NCBI GenBank assembly: GCA_948468535.1
Contig: CAOKIL010000002.1
Span: forward strand, 1-64,000
From: an uncultured Eubacteriales bacterium
GTDB lineage: Bacteria; Bacillota; Clostridia; Monoglobales; Monoglobaceae
Length of the DNA: 64,000 bases
Direction of reading: 5' to 3'
Shown: in pieces, positions 6,352 through 56,250 of the stretch
Position numbering within the stretch: position 1 is the stretch's first letter
Layout: each line of letters starts with the position of its first letter
The notes under the pieces: model-generated
What the model saw: only the letters and a program-made list of their open reading frames with translations
Told to the model about the DNA's origin: nothing
The model's database searches: none
Position numbers and translations under genes: made by a program

Positions 6352-7677
6352 TTGGAAAATATAAATATTATTTGGGGAAACGTCACAAGACAACTGCAGG
6401 ACGAGATGTCAACAGTTGCTTTTGATACGTGGATTAAACCGGTTAAACCTGTTGAAGTTGCAGGCAGTTCAATTACTCTCTGCGTACCGGGAGGTTCTCA
6501 GAAAGGAAGTCTCAATAAAAGCATGCTGGTTACAAAATACCGCTCTCTTATTGAAAGCAGCATTGAAACTGTCACAGGGAAGAATTTGGAGCTTGATGTC
6601 TGCTTTGAAAATGATAATTCAAGCAAAGCTTTAGATGATCCTATTAAATACGAGAGCACTTTAAACCCAAAATACACATTTGAAAACTTTATTGTCGGAA
6701 ACAACAATAATCTGGCACAGGCAGCGTCGCTTGCTGTTGCCGAATCACCTGCGCATAAATACAATCCGCTGTTTATTTACGGCGGAAGCGGACTGGGTAA
6801 AACTCATTTGATTCAGGCTATCGGTAATTATTATATAAAAAATAATCCGGGCAAGCGAATCTTATACACTACGAGTGAAAAGTTCACATATGAGCTGGTT
6901 ACCGCTATCCGCGAAAAGACAAACCAGGAATTTAGAAACAAGCACAGAACCGTAGACTTGCTGCTTATGGATGATGTTCAGTTTCTTGCTACCAAAGAAC
7001 TCGCACAGGAGGAATTTTTCCATACTTTTAATGCGCTGTATGAGGCAGGAAAGCAAATTGTTTTAACCTCTGACCGTCTGCCGTCCGAGACTCCGCATCT
7101 TACGGACAGGCTAAAAACCCGTTTCCAGATGGGACTTCTGGCAGACATTCAGCCGCCGGACTATGAGACGCGTCTTGCTATTCTTAAAAGTAAAATTGAA
7201 AATGAATACTTTACATTTGATGAAGAAATCGTCGAGTATGTTGCCAACAACATCACATCAAATGTGCGCGATCTTGAAGGCGCGCTTAAACGTATTTTGG
7301 CATATGCGGGTATTGAGCGCACAAACACTATTTCCATGGAGCTTGCTCAAAAAGCTCTTAAAGAAATCCTGTCAACCCTGCCGCAGCGCAATATTACTAT
7401 TAATGTAATAATAGATGAGGTTGAAAAATACTATCATCTGCCGAAAGGCTCACTGATTACAAAAAAGCGCTCAAATGATATCGCATATCCGCGTCACATT
7501 GCAATGTACATATCGCGTATAACTCTTGACTCATCATATGGCTCAATAGGCGATGCTTTTAACCGTGACCATTCAACCGTCATGAACGCTGTCAAGAAGA
7601 TTAAAAAAATGGTTACTGAAGACGCCGAGCTTCGCGAAATAATAGACGAACTTGTTACAAATATCAAGAAAGATTAA
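6352..7677 (+). CDS. dnaA: Chromosomal replication initiator protein DnaA
   Basis: 441 residues. Domain I (about 1-80) is the DnaA N-terminal fold (WGNVTRQLQDEMSTVAFDTW). A short linker precedes the AAA+ domain, with Walker A GGSGLGKTHL near residue 145 and Walker B LLLMDDVQFL. The C-terminal DNA-binding domain has GDAFNRDHSTVMNAVKKI, the DnaA-box recognition helix. The start is TTG at 6352 with AAGGAG 9 nt upstream; no ATG fits the conserved N-terminus. The gene is followed by mnmE after 31 nt rather than by dnaN, which is unusual. Confidence 0.97.
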   Translation: MENINIIWGNVTRQLQDEMSTVAFDTWIKPVKPVEVAGSSITLCVPGGSQKGSLNKSMLVTKYRSLIESSIETVTGKNLELDVCFENDNSSKALDDPIKYESTLNPKYTFENFIVGNNNNLAQAASLAVAESPAHKYNPLFIYGGSGLGKTHLIQAIGNYYIKNNPGKRILYTTSEKFTYELVTAIREKTNQEFRNKHRTVDLLLMDDVQFLATKELAQEEFFHTFNALYEAGKQIVLTSDRLPSETPHLTDRLKTRFQMGLLADIQPPDYETRLAILKSKIENEYFTFDEEIVEYVANNITSNVRDLEGALKRILAYAGIERTNTISMELAQKALKEILSTLPQRNITINVIIDEVEKYYHLPKGSLITKKRSNDIAYPRHIAMYISRITLDSSYGSIGDAFNRDHSTVMNAVKKIKKMVTEDAELREIIDELVTNIKKD

Positions 7678-9164: not shown

Positions 9165-10193
9165 ATGGAATATATAGATATTTCTTATGAATTTGCGGAA
9201 AAGTACTTACGCTACGCAAATCCGTTACATACACAGGTTTTTCTGTATGCAAAATATATTTTCAGCCGTGACGGACAAATCCCTCCGATTGACTCAATTT
9301 CGGCAGAGCTTGACATCGCACCGAATCGTGTGAAGTTTGCACTCGGATATTGGGTCAGCGAAGGAGAGCTGATTCAGCTCGATGATAATACATATTCCTT
9401 CCCGCAAGATACAAAAGATTTGAACAGTTCTAAAAAACAAACCGAAAAACCAAAGAAAAAAGCACGCCGTAAAACCTCTGCACGTCCATCATACAAAAGT
9501 GATGAGATTGATACTGCTGCCGATAAGAATCAAGTTCTTTCCGGAATGTTTTATCAGGCAGAAGGCATTTTGGGGCGGCTTTTGTCAGGCAGTGAAATGG
9601 AGCTTTTATATTCATTCTATGACTGGCTTGGACTGCCGTGTGAAGTTATTGTTATGCTTCTTAACTATGCGGCAAAGCGCGGGAAAACGGGCAAGCGTTA
9701 TCTTGAAACTGTCGCTATCGACTGGGCGGATAAAGGCATAGATACATTTGAAAAAGCAGAGGATTATATAAAACAGCTTGAAGCTCAGGAGGACAGCGAG
9801 TATCAAATACGCTCTATTCTCGGTATCTACGACCGTTCTTTGACCCAAACCGAAAAAAAATATATCAAATCATGGACAGAGCTCGACATCAGTTCTGAGC
9901 TTGTATCACTCGCCTATGACCGAACCGTAAACAATACCGGCAAACTTTCATACAGTTACATGAACAAAATACTTGTATCATGGCACAGTGAGGGTATTAC
10001 TGACAGCGACGGTGTTAAGCGCAGTGAAGAAATCTTTAATCTTAATCACGGATATGACAAATCAAAACAGAATAATACAAATGATGATACTTTAAACATC
10101 CAAAATAGCAAGTTTAATAACTATAATGATACAAATAAAATCGACTATGCGTCACTTGAAGAGAAGCTTCTTGACATGATGCTGGATAACTGA
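9165..10193 (+). CDS. DnaD-domain replication/primosome protein
   Basis: 342 residues. The N-terminal part (about 1-80) resembles a DnaD winged helix (LHTQVFLYAKYIF, then LDIAPNRVKFALGYWVSEGEL). A basic low-complexity linker with KKKARRKTSAR follows, then two DnaD/DnaB_2-type helical domains. The first is about residues 125-210 (ILGRLLSGSEMELLYSFYDW ... YLETVAIDWADKGI), the second about 215-290 (LTQTEKKYIKSWTELDI ... YSYMNKILVSWHSEGI). Such proteins help load the replicative helicase in Bacillota. A helicase-loader gene follows, and dnaA is two genes upstream, so the cluster looks dedicated to initiation. Whether it corresponds to Bacillus DnaB or DnaD cannot be decided here. Confidence 0.88.
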   Translation: MEYIDISYEFAEKYLRYANPLHTQVFLYAKYIFSRDGQIPPIDSISAELDIAPNRVKFALGYWVSEGELIQLDDNTYSFPQDTKDLNSSKKQTEKPKKKARRKTSARPSYKSDEIDTAADKNQVLSGMFYQAEGILGRLLSGSEMELLYSFYDWLGLPCEVIVMLLNYAAKRGKTGKRYLETVAIDWADKGIDTFEKAEDYIKQLEAQEDSEYQIRSILGIYDRSLTQTEKKYIKSWTELDISSELVSLAYDRTVNNTGKLSYSYMNKILVSWHSEGITDSDGVKRSEEIFNLNHGYDKSKQNNTNDDTLNIQNSKFNNYNDTNKIDYASLEEKLLDMMLDN

Positions 10194-11257: not shown

Positions 11258-13330
11258 TTACAGCCAAAACGCTATCAAATGCTGGACTGTATAATAAAGT
11301 GTCGGATTTGCCGCTTGGATAGAATCTTCACTATGGGCGAATATTCTCAGGAATGCAAGTGCAAGCGACACAACCGTCAGTACTGTAACAATACTTATAA
11401 TCTTTGACTTAGCCTCAATATTGCCAATGTTCCTGTCATAATACGCAAACACAGTAACTGCTGACGCAATCATCAACAGCCAAATGAAATCCGTAAAATA
11501 TCTCGTAAGCAATCCTGCCATCTGTGCATCAAGAATACCCAGCACAACAGCTATAATAATTGAAAAATACACCATTCGATATGCTCTTTTATCTGAAAAT
11601 ACGTTCTTTTTAAATGCACCATACACGCCAATCAGCAATATCGGATATAGCCAAAGTACACCGCCCATCAGTTTTTCTGTAAGAGTCAAACCCTGATACG
11701 CTGTCGCTGATGAAAAATCATGGATAAACGGAAACAGCGCATTCATGCTAAACGGCTGAAGGAAATATGTGAATATTCCCAGACCTGTTCTGCCAAATAC
11801 AAACCCTCTGTGTGTCATATCGTTAGTTGTTAGATTATAATTTGCTCCGAAGTCGAACGGCGAACCGAATCTTGCAGCATTATACCACATAACAACTGCA
11901 CCAACAATAATAAACGGCAAACAAACTGCGGCAGTTTGTTTTATACTCGATTTTGAAAATAACGTACGTTTTTTAAAAGCATGATTCCAAAACAGCATTA
12001 CTCCAAATACTGCCGCAAGCAAGAACTGCGGTCTGCATCCCGCGGTCAAGGCTATAAACAAAGATCCCAGAGTAAGCCTCCACGAGACAAGTTCTGTTCC
12101 CCCGTCATCAGAATCACGTTCCGCTGACAGCCAGAACGCCAAACCAAACAGCGCAAACATCAACGCAGCTAAACTTGGGACAATATAAAAATCGGGCTTT
12201 TGGACCGCATATGCAATTCCTGACACCGCGCCAAAAACAATTGACATTATCAGGTAGAGCACAAACGGCGTATTCTTATACCACTTTTTGATAATCTCCC
12301 AAAGCAGCAGAAGTATGCCTATTATTATCATAACACCGAAAATAAACACTGCAATATAGTTTGGCAAATCATTGCCGGTTACTAAATTATACGGCAAATA
12401 CAGAAGCACAGCAGGCAGCGCACCAAAATATACATAACACCTTCCGTCATAATACGCATTATCCCATAATGCCGCTGAAATTGCAGACATTCTCGAACTA
12501 TAATCATATGGATTTTTTAAACTTTTTAAATTTTCGGGTATGTCCTTTTCTAAATATAAATGTCCGTCTTTGAACGACTCTATCAAATCATAATACTGCT
12601 GGTGATGTTCATAGTTTTTGTGCCAATTAAGAGCGGTTGTATTATAGTGCAGCATATTCCAAAAAAACACCGACTGCACTATTACAACTAAGATTACAAC
12701 CGCAAGCTGATATTTATTCTTTAAGTTGGTCTTATATCTATAAATAAATGACTTTGGTCTTATCAGATACAAAAGTATAAGAGCGAACAACATCACAAAA
12801 AACCTGACCCACGAAAATATCAGAGGTACATGTACGTTAAGACCTATACAGTCTCCGGTAACAGTCTCTCCGTTCATACCCTTGATTGTAATTTTCAAAT
12901 CTTTAATATTTCCGCTGAAATGCAGTCTTATATACTGTGATTGTTCTACATCCGTCAGCACAGTTCTTTCAGGCGCAGACAGCGCCGACGTGTTAGCCTC
13001 ATCCGAGGCTGAAATCGTAACCGAAGCTTTGCCTCCCTCAGCATTGCCCGGCTTTAGATACAGATATTTAACTTTTGCATTTAAATCATTATATTCGATT
13101 ACTCCGCTGTCACTGGTAAACTTTATATTATTTTCGCTGACCAATGCCCCTGATGATACCCCAGGCGCTGCGTTTATCTTACTGCAAAACGCCGAGTCAA
13201 GCCACTTATAATTAAACACAAACAATTCCAGAATCAGAGTTAATGAAAGTATAACCGCAAACGCAGCCGCATATTTTTTAGGAGTTTCCTCATTGAAAAA
13301 ATCTTTTAAAGCTTTAATCTTTTCTATCAT
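11258..13330 (-). CDS. Multi-pass membrane protein, GT-C glycosyltransferase-like
   Basis: 690 residues from ATG 13330, which overlaps the preceding gene's stop as ATGA and has GGAGG 8 nt upstream; an in-frame GTG 27 nt earlier is less likely. After one membrane segment (about residues 22-42) comes an extracytoplasmic beta-rich region to about 165, then at least nine hydrophobic segments. Motifs such as YFGALPAVLLYLPYNLVTG and WHKNYEHHQQYYDLIESF suggest a GT-C-fold transferase that uses a lipid-linked sugar. I cannot name a family with certainty. It is the last gene of the polysaccharide cluster. Confidence 0.7.
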   Translation of the reverse strand: MIEKIKALKDFFNEETPKKYAAAFAVILSLTLILELFVFNYKWLDSAFCSKINAAPGVSSGALVSENNIKFTSDSGVIEYNDLNAKVKYLYLKPGNAEGGKASVTISASDEANTSALSAPERTVLTDVEQSQYIRLHFSGNIKDLKITIKGMNGETVTGDCIGLNVHVPLIFSWVRFFVMLFALILLYLIRPKSFIYRYKTNLKNKYQLAVVILVVIVQSVFFWNMLHYNTTALNWHKNYEHHQQYYDLIESFKDGHLYLEKDIPENLKSLKNPYDYSSRMSAISAALWDNAYYDGRCYVYFGALPAVLLYLPYNLVTGNDLPNYIAVFIFGVMIIIGILLLLWEIIKKWYKNTPFVLYLIMSIVFGAVSGIAYAVQKPDFYIVPSLAALMFALFGLAFWLSAERDSDDGGTELVSWRLTLGSLFIALTAGCRPQFLLAAVFGVMLFWNHAFKKRTLFSKSSIKQTAAVCLPFIIVGAVVMWYNAARFGSPFDFGANYNLTTNDMTHRGFVFGRTGLGIFTYFLQPFSMNALFPFIHDFSSATAYQGLTLTEKLMGGVLWLYPILLIGVYGAFKKNVFSDKRAYRMVYFSIIIAVVLGILDAQMAGLLTRYFTDFIWLLMIASAVTVFAYYDRNIGNIEAKSKIISIVTVLTVVSLALAFLRIFAHSEDSIQAANPTLYYTVQHLIAFWL

Positions 13331-46483: not shown

Positions 46484-46792
46484 CTATTTTTTACACTTGG
46501 CTTTTAAAGACTGAAACTTTTCATAATAAATAATTTCAAAAAGTGCAGAAAGAACTCTGCCCTTTGTAATAAGCGTATAATCCGACTTCTCATTATCGCT
46601 ATGATTAACTTCCATTGCGTTATGTAATAACACTTTATTATCATCTAAAAATTGATATTTTAAAATATAATCTGTTTTATTAATTTGTATAGTTGAGATG
46701 TAGGATAAATCAGACGGATTGTATTGTGCGTCTTTAGTCAGTTCTTTTTTAATACTTTGGCAGTTTTTAAATTTAAATTTTCTTGTAATCAT
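46484..46792 (-). CDS. Hypothetical protein, 102 residues
   Basis: Not recognised. Small, basic and lysine-rich (MITRKFKFKNCQSIKKEL ... FQSLKAKCKK), no membrane segment or signal peptide. AAAGGAAG precedes the ATG. It is followed by a strong terminator and preceded by the small-RNA pair s1/N1. The other s/N pair (55.6-56.0 kb) also precedes a small hypothetical gene on the same strand. Confidence 0.6.
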   Translation of the reverse strand: MITRKFKFKNCQSIKKELTKDAQYNPSDLSYISTIQINKTDYILKYQFLDDNKVLLHNAMEVNHSDNEKSDYTLITKGRVLSALFEIIYYEKFQSLKAKCKK

Positions 46793-46993: not shown

Positions 46994-47194
46994 TTAAAAA
47001 AGTGCGTTAACAAAGTAACGCACTAAAAAACACATTACTCTAATAGTTGTCACACTAATTATTTCAATCCTAATAAACTAAGAATATCAAAAAATAGAGT
47101 AAGCGTTTTTATCGTATTAAAATAAAACGTTTATAAGGATTAAAATTAAATAATGTGACAAAGCAAGTATATCACACCTTTTTAAGTTTGTAAA
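46994..47194 (-). ncRNA. Structured RNA element N1 with promoter and terminator
   Basis: Minus-strand promoter TTTACA (47194-47189), 17 nt, TATACT (47171-47166). The RNA (about 47159 to 46994) is closed by TTGTCACA (47047-47054) with TGTGACAA (47154-47161). An inner stem pairs AATCCTAATAAAC (47066-47078) with GTTTATAAGGATT (47129-47141). A terminator (GTGCGTTA/TAACGCAC, 47002-47023) has a T-run on the minus strand. Compared with N2 and N3 both stems differ in sequence but keep pairing. No reading frame of note. Confidence 0.7.
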
Positions 47195-47204
47195 CACCAA
47201 ATTT

Positions 47205-47474
47205 TATTTCAAGACCCATTTCTTTCCTACTTGCGGAAAGAAACGGTTCTTGGACTCCAAAGAAAGGCGCTTTGGCTCGCTGAGGTCGCTATCGCTCCAA
47301 GGGCGTGCCCCTAATCGGTTTTTGGCTAACGCCAAAAACAAGGACAGCTTCACAGCCTTAATATTTTTGCACTGCCGTGAATCTTTCAGCAAAGGCATTG
47401 ACGATATTGCCGCCGCGGCTTGGCATGGCGGAATATGGGTTCGGCAATGGTTTCAAAGTCAACGCCTTGATGAA
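47205..47474 (-). repeat. Dispersed repeat R, copy R1
   Basis: About 270 bp, more GC-rich than its surroundings, homologous in reverse orientation to R2 (56000-56250). Shared blocks in order (minus strand here): TTCATCAAGGC, ATTCCGCC, CCGCGGCGGCAAT, ATTCACGG, AGTGCAA, CTTTCTTTGGAG and a terminal hairpin (TTTCTTTCC/GGAAAGAAA). R1 also has the hairpin GTTTTTGGC/GCCAAAAAC (47318-47339). An open frame of 64 codons crosses it but is not supported as a gene. Confidence 0.75.
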
Positions 47475-47486
47475 TTACCCAAAAAC

Positions 47487-47684
47487 TAAAAAATGCGCCA
47501 GCAAAGCTGACGCACAAAAACGCAGCTTTGATTAAATGTTGCGACACATCTCATAAACTTTAAACAGAAAAAAAGAATATGACAAACCAAAGCCTACGTT
47601 TTTTACATTCGTAAACTATTTTTCTGTTTAAATATTAAAGAAATGTCGCAGATATAATATAACATACTTTATTTAGTTTGTAAA
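47487..47684 (-). ncRNA. Structured RNA element N2 with promoter and terminator
   Basis: Promoter TTTACA (47684-47679), 17 nt, TATATT (47661-47656). The RNA (about 47650 to 47487) is closed by TGCGACA (47540-47546) with TGTCGCA (47644-47650). The inner stem is a perfect 14-bp match, TTTAAACAGAAAAA (47559-47572) with TTTTTCTGTTTAAA (47619-47632). The terminator at 47494-47514 (TGCGCCAGC/GCTGACGCA) pairs fully, with a U-G, only as minus-strand RNA. The core around CCTACGTTTTTTAC is shared with N3. Confidence 0.75.
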
Positions 47685-47697
47685 GAAAAATTTTTTC

Positions 47698-47855
47698 TTG
47701 ACATACATCCACGTATGTGGTATTATAATTATAGAAAACCACCCATTCAATTGAACAGGTGGTTACAGCGCAAAATAGCATTAGCTGTTTCCGCAGCGCT
47801 ATTAAATAATCATATCTAACCGTCGCTCGGCTAAGCGGCGGTTATTTCTTTGTTT
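47698..47855 (+). ncRNA. Candidate antitoxin RNA, copy B (orphan), with promoter
   Basis: Promoter TTGACA (47698-47703), 17 nt, TATTAT (47721-47726), start near 47733. The RNA shares with copy A: a TATAGAAA start, hairpin ACCACC/GGTGGT (A has GCCACTC/GAGTGGC), CATTC, ACAGCG, AAATAGC, TGTTTCCGCA and a terminator AACCG...CGGTT followed by ATTTCT. No membrane-peptide gene is left opposite it; its terminator overlaps the end of a truncated RelE-like frame. Its promoter is back-to-back with that of N2. Confidence 0.65.
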
Positions 47856-47916
47856 TAGCATAAATCACTATTTTCTTTGCAATAGACAAAAATTCAACTG
47901 TATACTTTTTATCCAT
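47842..47916 (-). pseudogene. Truncated RelE/ParE-type toxin remnant
   Basis: A 24-residue frame starts at ATG 47916 inside the end of the phd-like gene (8-nt overlap, normal for such operons). It reads MDKKYTVEFLSIAKK, a good match to the N-terminus of RelE/ParE/YoeB-type toxins (KKYTVEFLPIAKKD in many), then IVIYAKTKK and stops at the terminator of antitoxin RNA copy B. A normal toxin has 85-100 residues. The last codons resemble the end of the 20-residue peptide at 40.1 kb (IIIAYIEK), so it may be a recombination joint between two toxin loci. Confidence 0.6.
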
Positions 47917-48175
47917 TCGCAGCTTCCCTCATAGCTTTGAGAACTTCCTGTAATGAAAAACGTTCATTTTTAAGTTCAGATTCCATATCAGATTCCTGAA
48001 GCTTATAATATACTTCACTCTCTAATTGAAGGTTCTCAAACACTTCCATACTCAAAACCACCATGTCGCCAAATCCGTTCTTTGTCAGAAAAACAGGCTG
48101 CTTTGTTTGGTGTACTATTTTTGAAATTTCAGCAAAATTATTTCTCAAATCAGATATCGGTCTAATCATATCCAT
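47909..48175 (-). CDS. Phd/YefM-family antitoxin
   Basis: 88 residues from ATG 48175 (GAGG 8 nt upstream; a GTG 9 nt earlier is less likely). The N-terminal Phd/YefM DNA-binding fold is MIRPISDLRNNFAEISKIV ... QPVFLTKNGFGDMVVLSMEVFE. The C-terminal half is acidic and helical, as in antitoxins that fold over a toxin. A 22-bp palindrome in the promoter suggests autoregulation. The toxin that should follow is only a remnant, so this antitoxin is probably orphaned. Confidence 0.85.
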   Translation of the reverse strand: MDMIRPISDLRNNFAEISKIVHQTKQPVFLTKNGFGDMVVLSMEVFENLQLESEVYYKLQESDMESELKNERFSLQEVLKAMREAANG

Positions 48176-48196
48176 TTTAAGCACCTCATATAGTTA

Positions 48197-55315: not shown

Positions 55316-55600
55316 TTATTTAATCAAATCTTTTGCAAGCATTAATCCGCAGCGGATTCCTGTTTCCATACATACTCTTTCGTATACATCTGAAAATTCA
55401 AAAATACTGTTCATTATATTTGTAACATCTTTATCATCTTTAAAATATTTTCGCAGTATGTTATTCATTTTCAATGTTGCATCTTCTATCTCTTTATTAT
55501 ATAATCCGTTAGGTTCATCTATTTCTTCTTTACCGTTCAACAAGAACTCTCCGATTTTCCGCAAATTCGCTCTCCTTAATATATCTGATAAATCATCCAT
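55316..55600 (-). CDS. Hypothetical protein, 94 residues
   Basis: Start ATG 55600 with AGGAGG 7 nt upstream; an upstream in-frame TTG lacks a ribosome site. Not clearly recognised. It is helical and charged, ending VCMETGIRCGLMLAKDLIK. That end resembles small hypothetical proteins that end in a 'GFRLG...LM'-type helix, but I do not assign a family. It follows the s2/N3 element pair, as the 102-residue gene at 46.5 kb follows s1/N1. Confidence 0.65.
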   Translation of the reverse strand: MDDLSDILRRANLRKIGEFLLNGKEEIDEPNGLYNKEIEDATLKMNNILRKYFKDDKDVTNIMNSIFEFSDVYERVCMETGIRCGLMLAKDLIK

Positions 55601-55632: not shown

Positions 55633-55752
55633 TTGACAAGAGGAACCTTCCATAGTATAATTAGATTTACGGACAGAGTTCGCTCTTGTCTGGTTTTTGT
55701 TATAGAACGTTGTTAACATTGGTCGTGTGGCAGCGTTCTATTTTTTGTTTTT
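55633..55752 (+). ncRNA. Candidate small RNA s2 with promoter
   Basis: Exact consensus TTGACA-17-TATAAT (55633-55638 and 55656-55661), start near 55668. A first hairpin around a TTCG loop (GACAGAG...CTCTTGTC) is followed by a terminator, ATAGAACG (55702-55709) with CGTTCTAT (55734-55741), and a TTTTTTGTTTTT tail. The terminator tail and the bases after it match s1. The RNA lies on the strand opposite the leader of the 94-residue gene. Confidence 0.65.
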
Positions 55753-55795
55753 GAAGTTAAGCATAAATATTCCCCTCCTTAAAAACCTCAATAAC

Positions 55796-55990
55796 TAAAA
55801 AATGCGCCAGCAAAGCTGACGCACAAAAACGCAGCCTTGATTTAATGTTGCAACACATCTCATAACTTTATTCCATGAAAAAGTATGACAAATCAAAGCC
55901 TACGTTTTTTACAAATCGTAAACTTTTACATGAAATAAATATTAAGATATGTTGCAAATATAATATAACACACTTTTATATTTTTGTAAA
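55796..55990 (-). ncRNA. Structured RNA element N3 with promoter and terminator
   Basis: Promoter TTTACA (55990-55985), 17 nt, TATATT (55967-55962). The RNA (about 55956 to 55796) is closed by TGCAACA (55849-55855) with TGTTGCA (55950-55956), where N2 has GCGACA/TGTCGC. The inner stem pairs TTTATTCCATG (55867-55877) with CATGAAATAAA (55929-55939); the single mismatch becomes a G-U pair only in minus-strand RNA. The core and the terminator (55803-55823) are nearly identical to N2. Confidence 0.75.
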
Positions 55991-55999
55991 GAAAATTTT

Positions 56000-56250
56000 T
56001 TCATCAAGGCTTTACCTTTAAATCAAACGCCGTCCCCTGATTCCGCCTTGCCTACCGCGGCGGCAATGTTGCAAAGCCTTTATGAAAAATTCACGGTAGT
56101 GCAATGATATTTAGGCATAAAAAGCGGTTTGCTTTTTCGAGTTGCTATAGCAACCGAAAAGTAGAGCGATGCACAAACTAAGCGTTTTTCTTTGGAGGTT
56201 CGGAACCATTTCTTTTTCCGAATCGAAAAAAGAAACGGTTCTGAAAATAA
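56000..56250 (+). repeat. Dispersed repeat R, copy R2
   Basis: The counterpart of R1 (47205-47474) in opposite orientation, beginning TTCATCAAGGC immediately beyond the N3 promoter. The terminal hairpin here is TTTCTTTTTC/GAAAAAAGAAA, different in sequence from R1 but still paired. Two short inner hairpins (AAAGC/GCTTT and GTTGC/GCAAC) replace the single hairpin of R1. Confidence 0.75.

Follow-up and report, generated by a model that had tools for sequence, protein, structure and literature searches.

What is the structured element, here called N3, at positions 55796–55990 of the window (the whole 64,000-nucleotide stretch of DNA analysed here), and what is its relationship to a similar element, N2, about 8 kb away? 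The first-pass annotation had described the two as sharing a nearly identical core and terminator held by different stems, and had proposed a ligand- or protein-binding RNA, possibly mobile or duplicated. N3 is a genuine element: the core CCTACGTTTTTTAC is exact at 47593–47606 and 55899–55912, and elsewhere in the window there is a single match with two or fewer mismatches, at 11963, which is at chance level. N2 and N3 are 84% identical (206 nt, E=5.6e-56), their terminators are identical, and the variable stem is altered yet paired in both copies (CATGAAATA/..CATGGAATA-like arms in N3 and TTTAAACAGAAAAA/TTTTTCTGTTTAAA in N2). A coding explanation of N3 and its shared core can be rejected, as there is no ORF of 80 aa or more across 55796–55990. 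Copies also extend beyond this pair. A third, diverged copy, N1, lies at 47165–46996 in tandem behind N2, and a covariance model (R1), used for the genome searches, identifies 34 copies at E≤0.001 and 39 at E≤0.1 in the source genome, which is 79%-complete and Monoglobus-like. Folding z-scores are −6.5 for N3, −6.7 for N2 and −6.2 for N1, with none of 200 shuffles equally stable. The span given for N3 required a correction of its functional strand, which is the minus strand, with a promoter at 55990–55962 and the terminator at 55824–55797 (Table 1). The conserved core and variable, co-varying stems thus stand as described, within a transcribed-looking unit that has its own promoter and terminator; as set out below, however, this unit is better read as a 5′ leader switch than as a free-standing aptamer.

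Table 1. Positions of N3, N2, N1 and associated features in the window.
Feature	Positions	Strand	Basis or remark
N3 promoter, TTTACA-17-TATATT, extended -10 (TGTG)	55962..55990	-	same layout in relatives
N3 leader RNA	55797..55957	-	inferred transcript start
N3 P1 5′ arm (TTGCAACATATCTTAA)	55942..55957	-	fold; P1 covariation
N3 P2 5′ arm, variable stem	55929..55940	-	fold
N3 P3 5′ arm GTTTACG, pairs with core CGTAGGC	55917..55923	-	swap test; pair counts
N3 apical core AAAACGTAGGCTTTGATT, can pair with either P3 5′ arm or tail	55891..55908	-	swap tests; pair counts
N3 P2 3′ arm	55867..55877	-	fold
N3 P1 3′ arm	55848..55865	-	fold; covariation
N3 tail AATCAAGGCTGCGTTTTT, pairs with core or terminator 5′ arm (antiterminator)	55825..55842	-	swap tests
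N3 intrinsic terminator GTGCGTCAGCTTTGCTGGCGCATTTTTT	55797..55824	-	
Short ORF MLNFKNKK, Shine-Dalgarno AAGGAGGGG, first frame behind N3 terminator	55738..55764	-	
94-aa protein, family unassigned, probable N3-controlled gene	55316..55600	-	
N2 promoter TTTACA-17-TATATT	47656..47684	-	
N2, family member 84% identical to N3	47487..47655	-	
N1 promoter TTTACA-17-TATACT	47166..47194	-	
N1, diverged, tandem behind N2	46996..47165	-	E=0.006 in genome search
102-aa protein, family unassigned, probable N2/N1-controlled gene	46484..46792	-	

Alignment of 21 copies from the source genome reveals a common plan. Transcripts are predicted to start at the base of stem P1 (the end of the -10 box is a median of 4 nt from the first P1 pair), and P1 together with P2 forms a rod with a median length of 33 bp (IQR 30–35). 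A small hairpin, P3, sits in the apical loop of the rod, and its 3′ strand constitutes the conserved core (AAAACGYANGC plus UUUGAUU). On the 3′ side of P1 come a linker of ~4 nt, the tail (AAUCAAGGCUGCGUUUUU) and then the intrinsic terminator. The tail has two complementary partners, one being the core and the other the terminator's 5′ arm together with its loop; the core in turn is also complementary to the 5′ strand of P3. A descriptor scan of this plan finds N1, N2 and N3 and nothing else in the window, and yields one false match in 20 × 64 kb of Markov random sequence. Each member of the family has its own promoter at the base of the rod and a strong terminator, tandem members included, and the terminator is of the intrinsic type in every descriptor member. 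Of 94 members, 52 have a Shine-Dalgarno sequence and start codon no more than 60 nt from the terminator, compared with 357 of 1880 (19%) random positions; thirty of the 94, including N2, have no start codon within 120 nt.

The alternative pairings were compared by a swap test, in which the duplex energy of each strand with its own partner is set against that with partners from other members. Among 94 non-redundant members (an earlier version used 55) cognate partners are favoured for the tail and terminator 5′ arm (−12.8 vs −10.1 for swapped partners, z=−11), for the P3 arm and core (−12.0 vs −8.1, z=−14), and for the core and tail (−12.6 vs −9.0, z=−14), although the descriptor partly selects for this last pairing. 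The core:tail test was therefore repeated with 98 members selected by covariance model, for which pairing was no criterion, and gave a similar result (−11.9 vs −8.9, z=−12). Three control pairs that are not expected to form, in the same 94 members (core with either the 5′ or the 3′ terminator arm, and P3 arm with tail) show no cognate advantage (p 0.89–0.998), and the cognate-pairing result persists within class I alone, the remaining members alone, and distant genomes alone. Counts of paired positions were taken from an alignment (A3) that leans towards the model's structure; on it, 94.9% of cells are paired in P1, P3 and the terminator, against 21–55% in slid controls, with double changes at all 24 of 24 pairs. 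On the same alignment 86.6% of core:tail cells are paired compared with 81% when shuffled and 30–45% when slid, and while three other measures exceed those of shuffles, the numbers of core:tail double-change pairs and of pair types do not. A test of the P2 extension against the P3 5′ arm was set aside as confounded, because the segment included part of P2. The core recognised at first pass thus has a second covarying partner, the tail preceding the terminator, and the advantage of cognate over swapped pairing, together with the flat controls, indicates that these strands co-evolve as would those of a strand-exchange transcription switch.

We propose, with a probability of about 0.78, that N3 is one of a class of 5′ leader RNAs in which strand exchange determines whether the downstream gene is transcribed. 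The comparative support covers the order of promoter, rod, core, tail and terminator, the covariation of P1 and P3, the co-evolution of the core:tail and tail:terminator-arm pairings, and the proximity of start codons. With transcription beginning at the base of P1, the nascent RNA would first fold the long P1–P2 rod with P3 at its apex. With P3 formed, the core would be held by its own 5′ strand, leaving the later-made tail available to the terminator, whose 5′ arm and loop it would pair with; the resulting antiterminator would let the polymerase read into the gene. With P3 opened, the core would instead take the tail (12–18 bp), blocking the antiterminator, so that the terminator folds and transcription halts. 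We infer that an intact P3 is the ON state, that the switch works in vivo, and that the apical loop is the sensor. The trigger is probably a general signal, since the controlled genes have no pathway in common. On a crude estimate that takes the rod as straight and the rise per nucleotide as fixed, the median reach of the linkers is 63 angstrom against a rod of 92 angstrom, and by this length estimate the tail is too short to meet the apical core in cis with the rod intact in 81 of 92 members. For the OFF state, therefore, either P2 would have to open in part or a second RNA would have to be involved; core-tail pairing in cis would become possible by opening ~12 bp of the A/U-rich P2.

This geometry raises a less likely alternative, in which the RNAs act in trans by self-pairing, with the core and tail paired between two molecules whose equal-length rods lie antiparallel and place each tail beside the core of the other. 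New transcripts from the same or a sibling locus would in that case be the targets of terminated leaders, giving negative feedback by RNA abundance. The fairly uniform rod length, the short linkers (4 + 4 nt) with their insufficient reach in cis, and the matching of core and tail within each copy are all consistent with this, but the length estimate is crude and the modest opening of P2 noted above would allow pairing in cis. A bolder form, which would be a new class of genetic switch, has core and tail pairing reciprocally between two copies of the RNA, so that cells gauge how many terminated leaders are present and tens of genes, for surface proteins and accessory functions, are cross-regulated; this is speculative and rather doubtful. 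It is unlikely that the members are free-standing small RNAs acting on other RNAs or bound by protein, with the downstream gene incidental. Such RNAs would have the promoter at the rod base and the strong terminator found in every member, and the tandem copies and the 30 members without a near start codon also fit; however, a mere 3′ end would have no need of a tail that co-evolves with the terminator's 5′ arm and loop, and a nearby start codon is much commoner behind members than at random positions. It is barely credible that the RNA is the antitoxin of a type III toxin-antitoxin system, which consists of an RNA, a terminator and a toxin gene: the gene order is alike (promoter, structured RNA, terminator, Shine-Dalgarno sequence, small ORF), but there is a single rod per transcript in place of tandem short pseudoknot repeats, the downstream proteins come from many unrelated families and include secreted proteins of 490 aa, and none of the small ORFs tested has a Pfam or NCBIfam toxin match, where such a pair would have a toxin like ToxN, CptN or TenpN downstream.

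The genomic context bears on a further reading, a mobile or selfish repeat (MITE- or REP-like, or a retron- or transposon-associated RNA) spread by transposition. N3 lies in the order spore-germination-permease-like gene, RNA, small gene, tRNAs, ksgA, and in relatives the same site, between the germination-permease-like gene and the tRNAs and ksgA, also holds a family member, which there precedes an AbrB-like gene; the RNA is thus retained across relatives while the downstream gene changes. The suggested mobility therefore finds no support at N3. N2 and N1 are in a stretch beside a tRNA-Arg gene that differs between species, and in one of the genomes compared (G002) no such stretch was found beside the corresponding tRNA; gain or duplication there is possible. 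That genomes carry many copies, several of them adjoining a separate palindromic repeat, is what a mobile repeat might show, but the palindromic repeat is a different sequence, the copies differ by 16–30% and yet keep their pairing, and neither a reverse transcriptase nor a transposase was noticed beside N3. There is also no match in IMG/VR (searched with the exact tail pattern) or in plasmids, and transposition is accordingly a very improbable explanation. A phage or plasmid origin was rejected, the sole match being a promoter-sized stretch of 48 nt that covers the promoter end and is shared with one Staphylococcus phage.

Several other elements are associated with these loci. The palindromic repeat (CATCAAGGCTTT...CCGCGGCGGCAATG...) is present at 55997–56110 and 47361–47474 and has 26 matches in the genome; it is often beside leader RNAs but distinct from them. 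Behind N3, a putative convergent antisense RNA is encoded on the plus strand (55633–55748) with a near-perfect promoter (TTGACA or TTGAAA-17-TATAAT, 11–12 of 12 positions), and its terminator runs into the 8–12-codon frame (MLNLKTKK-like) that follows the leader. The same unit is found behind at least eight other copies (L003, L005, L006, L009, L011, L015, L019 and L108), and it looks like a second layer of control in the style of pT181 or of type I toxin-antitoxin systems; the RNA behind N3 scores 24.5 bits with the ctRNA_pT181 model, which is below threshold (cutoff 56). Near N2, a promoter-hairpin-terminator unit (47698–47844, plus strand) is opposite a 24-codon frame (MDKKYTVEFLSIAKKIVIYAKTKK), a short ORF at ~47850–47920 on the minus strand that lies behind a Phd/YefM antitoxin gene (47909–48184). 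The unit and short ORF are possibly the remnant of a toxin-antitoxin module with an antisense RNA.

The genes behind the leaders are diverse. Among the products encoded just behind the terminators are secreted or surface proteins with Pfam matches to BspA-type LRR, SLH, copper-amine-oxidase-N with metallophosphoesterase, and subtilase domains, and AbrB/MazE-like DNA-binding proteins that may carry a zinc ribbon; many others are 45–110 aa long and have no assigned family. Several copies in the source genome lead into a reading frame of 8–12 residues and then one of these small genes. Another genome (G008), probably that of the cultured Monoglobus pectinilyticus, has a single member, which precedes a gene for a secreted peptidase-like protein. 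In distant genomes, four leaders (L144, L146, L148 and L151) are followed by small cysteine-rich proteins (DITGIxLTPGNxGKDCPGNGE...ECCCDEC), and the one that was tested has no Pfam family. Two leaders in G000:C41, at 7462–7610 and 10022–10187 (L171), each precede a copy of the same AbrB-like gene, of which the second is frame shifted and ends after 31 residues.

Of 38 genomes in the family 36 have R1 matches, and the 13 genomes from other families of the order have none. Matches occur in 71 of 291 sampled genomes of the class (43 of 180 genera), and in none of another 298 genomes drawn across the phylum, at least nine of which are from the same class. This patchy spread, which skips sister families yet reaches distant ones, is suggestive of either loss or horizontal gain. 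Named records with the tail pattern are for the most part MAGs, of Monoglobus or Clostridia, recovered from rabbit and goat gut.

N1–N3 have no family match in Rfam 15 at gathering score, their best sub-threshold matches being chance-like, and 12 related loci gave no plausible match; identity with Rfam families (T-box, c-di-GMP and others) was rejected because covariance-model thresholds were not reached. No description of this RNA family was found in the parts of the open-licence literature available to us, including keyword-searched surveys of new bacterial RNAs and attenuators. Attenuator leaders are a known kind, but the family and its core-tail arrangement appear new. Like T-box and metabolite riboswitches of the transcription-attenuation type, the N3 family is a 5′ leader with mutually exclusive antiterminator and terminator, with one leader type before unrelated genes and with tandem copies; unlike them, it has no Rfam match, a long uniform rod from the transcript start, a tail with a covarying second partner in the apical loop of the rod, and a regulon of secreted and unassigned genes with no known ligand. 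In antisense attenuation of the pT181/pIP501 type (ctRNA), an RNA segment complementary to the antiterminator likewise decides terminator formation, but in the N3 family that segment, the core, is within the same sense leader and there is no Rep gene. The c-di-GMP-I and -II riboswitches of Clostridia resemble the N3 family in using terminators to regulate numerous genes for surface and extracellular proteins, but they differ from it in sequence and fold and have no Rfam match in the window or the 12 loci. A c-di-GMP riboswitch has also been described for an adhesin in Bacillus (PMC4933901). ModT, or raiA-motif RNA, is similarly a widespread structured RNA of Clostridia found comparatively (PMC11706538); the N3 family differs from it in sequence, in its many copies per genome, and in its putative strand-exchange expression platform.

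The conserved logic of core, tail and terminator makes the proposed mechanism directly testable using short templates. This RNA class is present in about a quarter of the sampled genomes of the class, with up to tens of copies in each, and if it is a switch, it would govern a large share of the proteins that gut Clostridia secrete or display at their surface.
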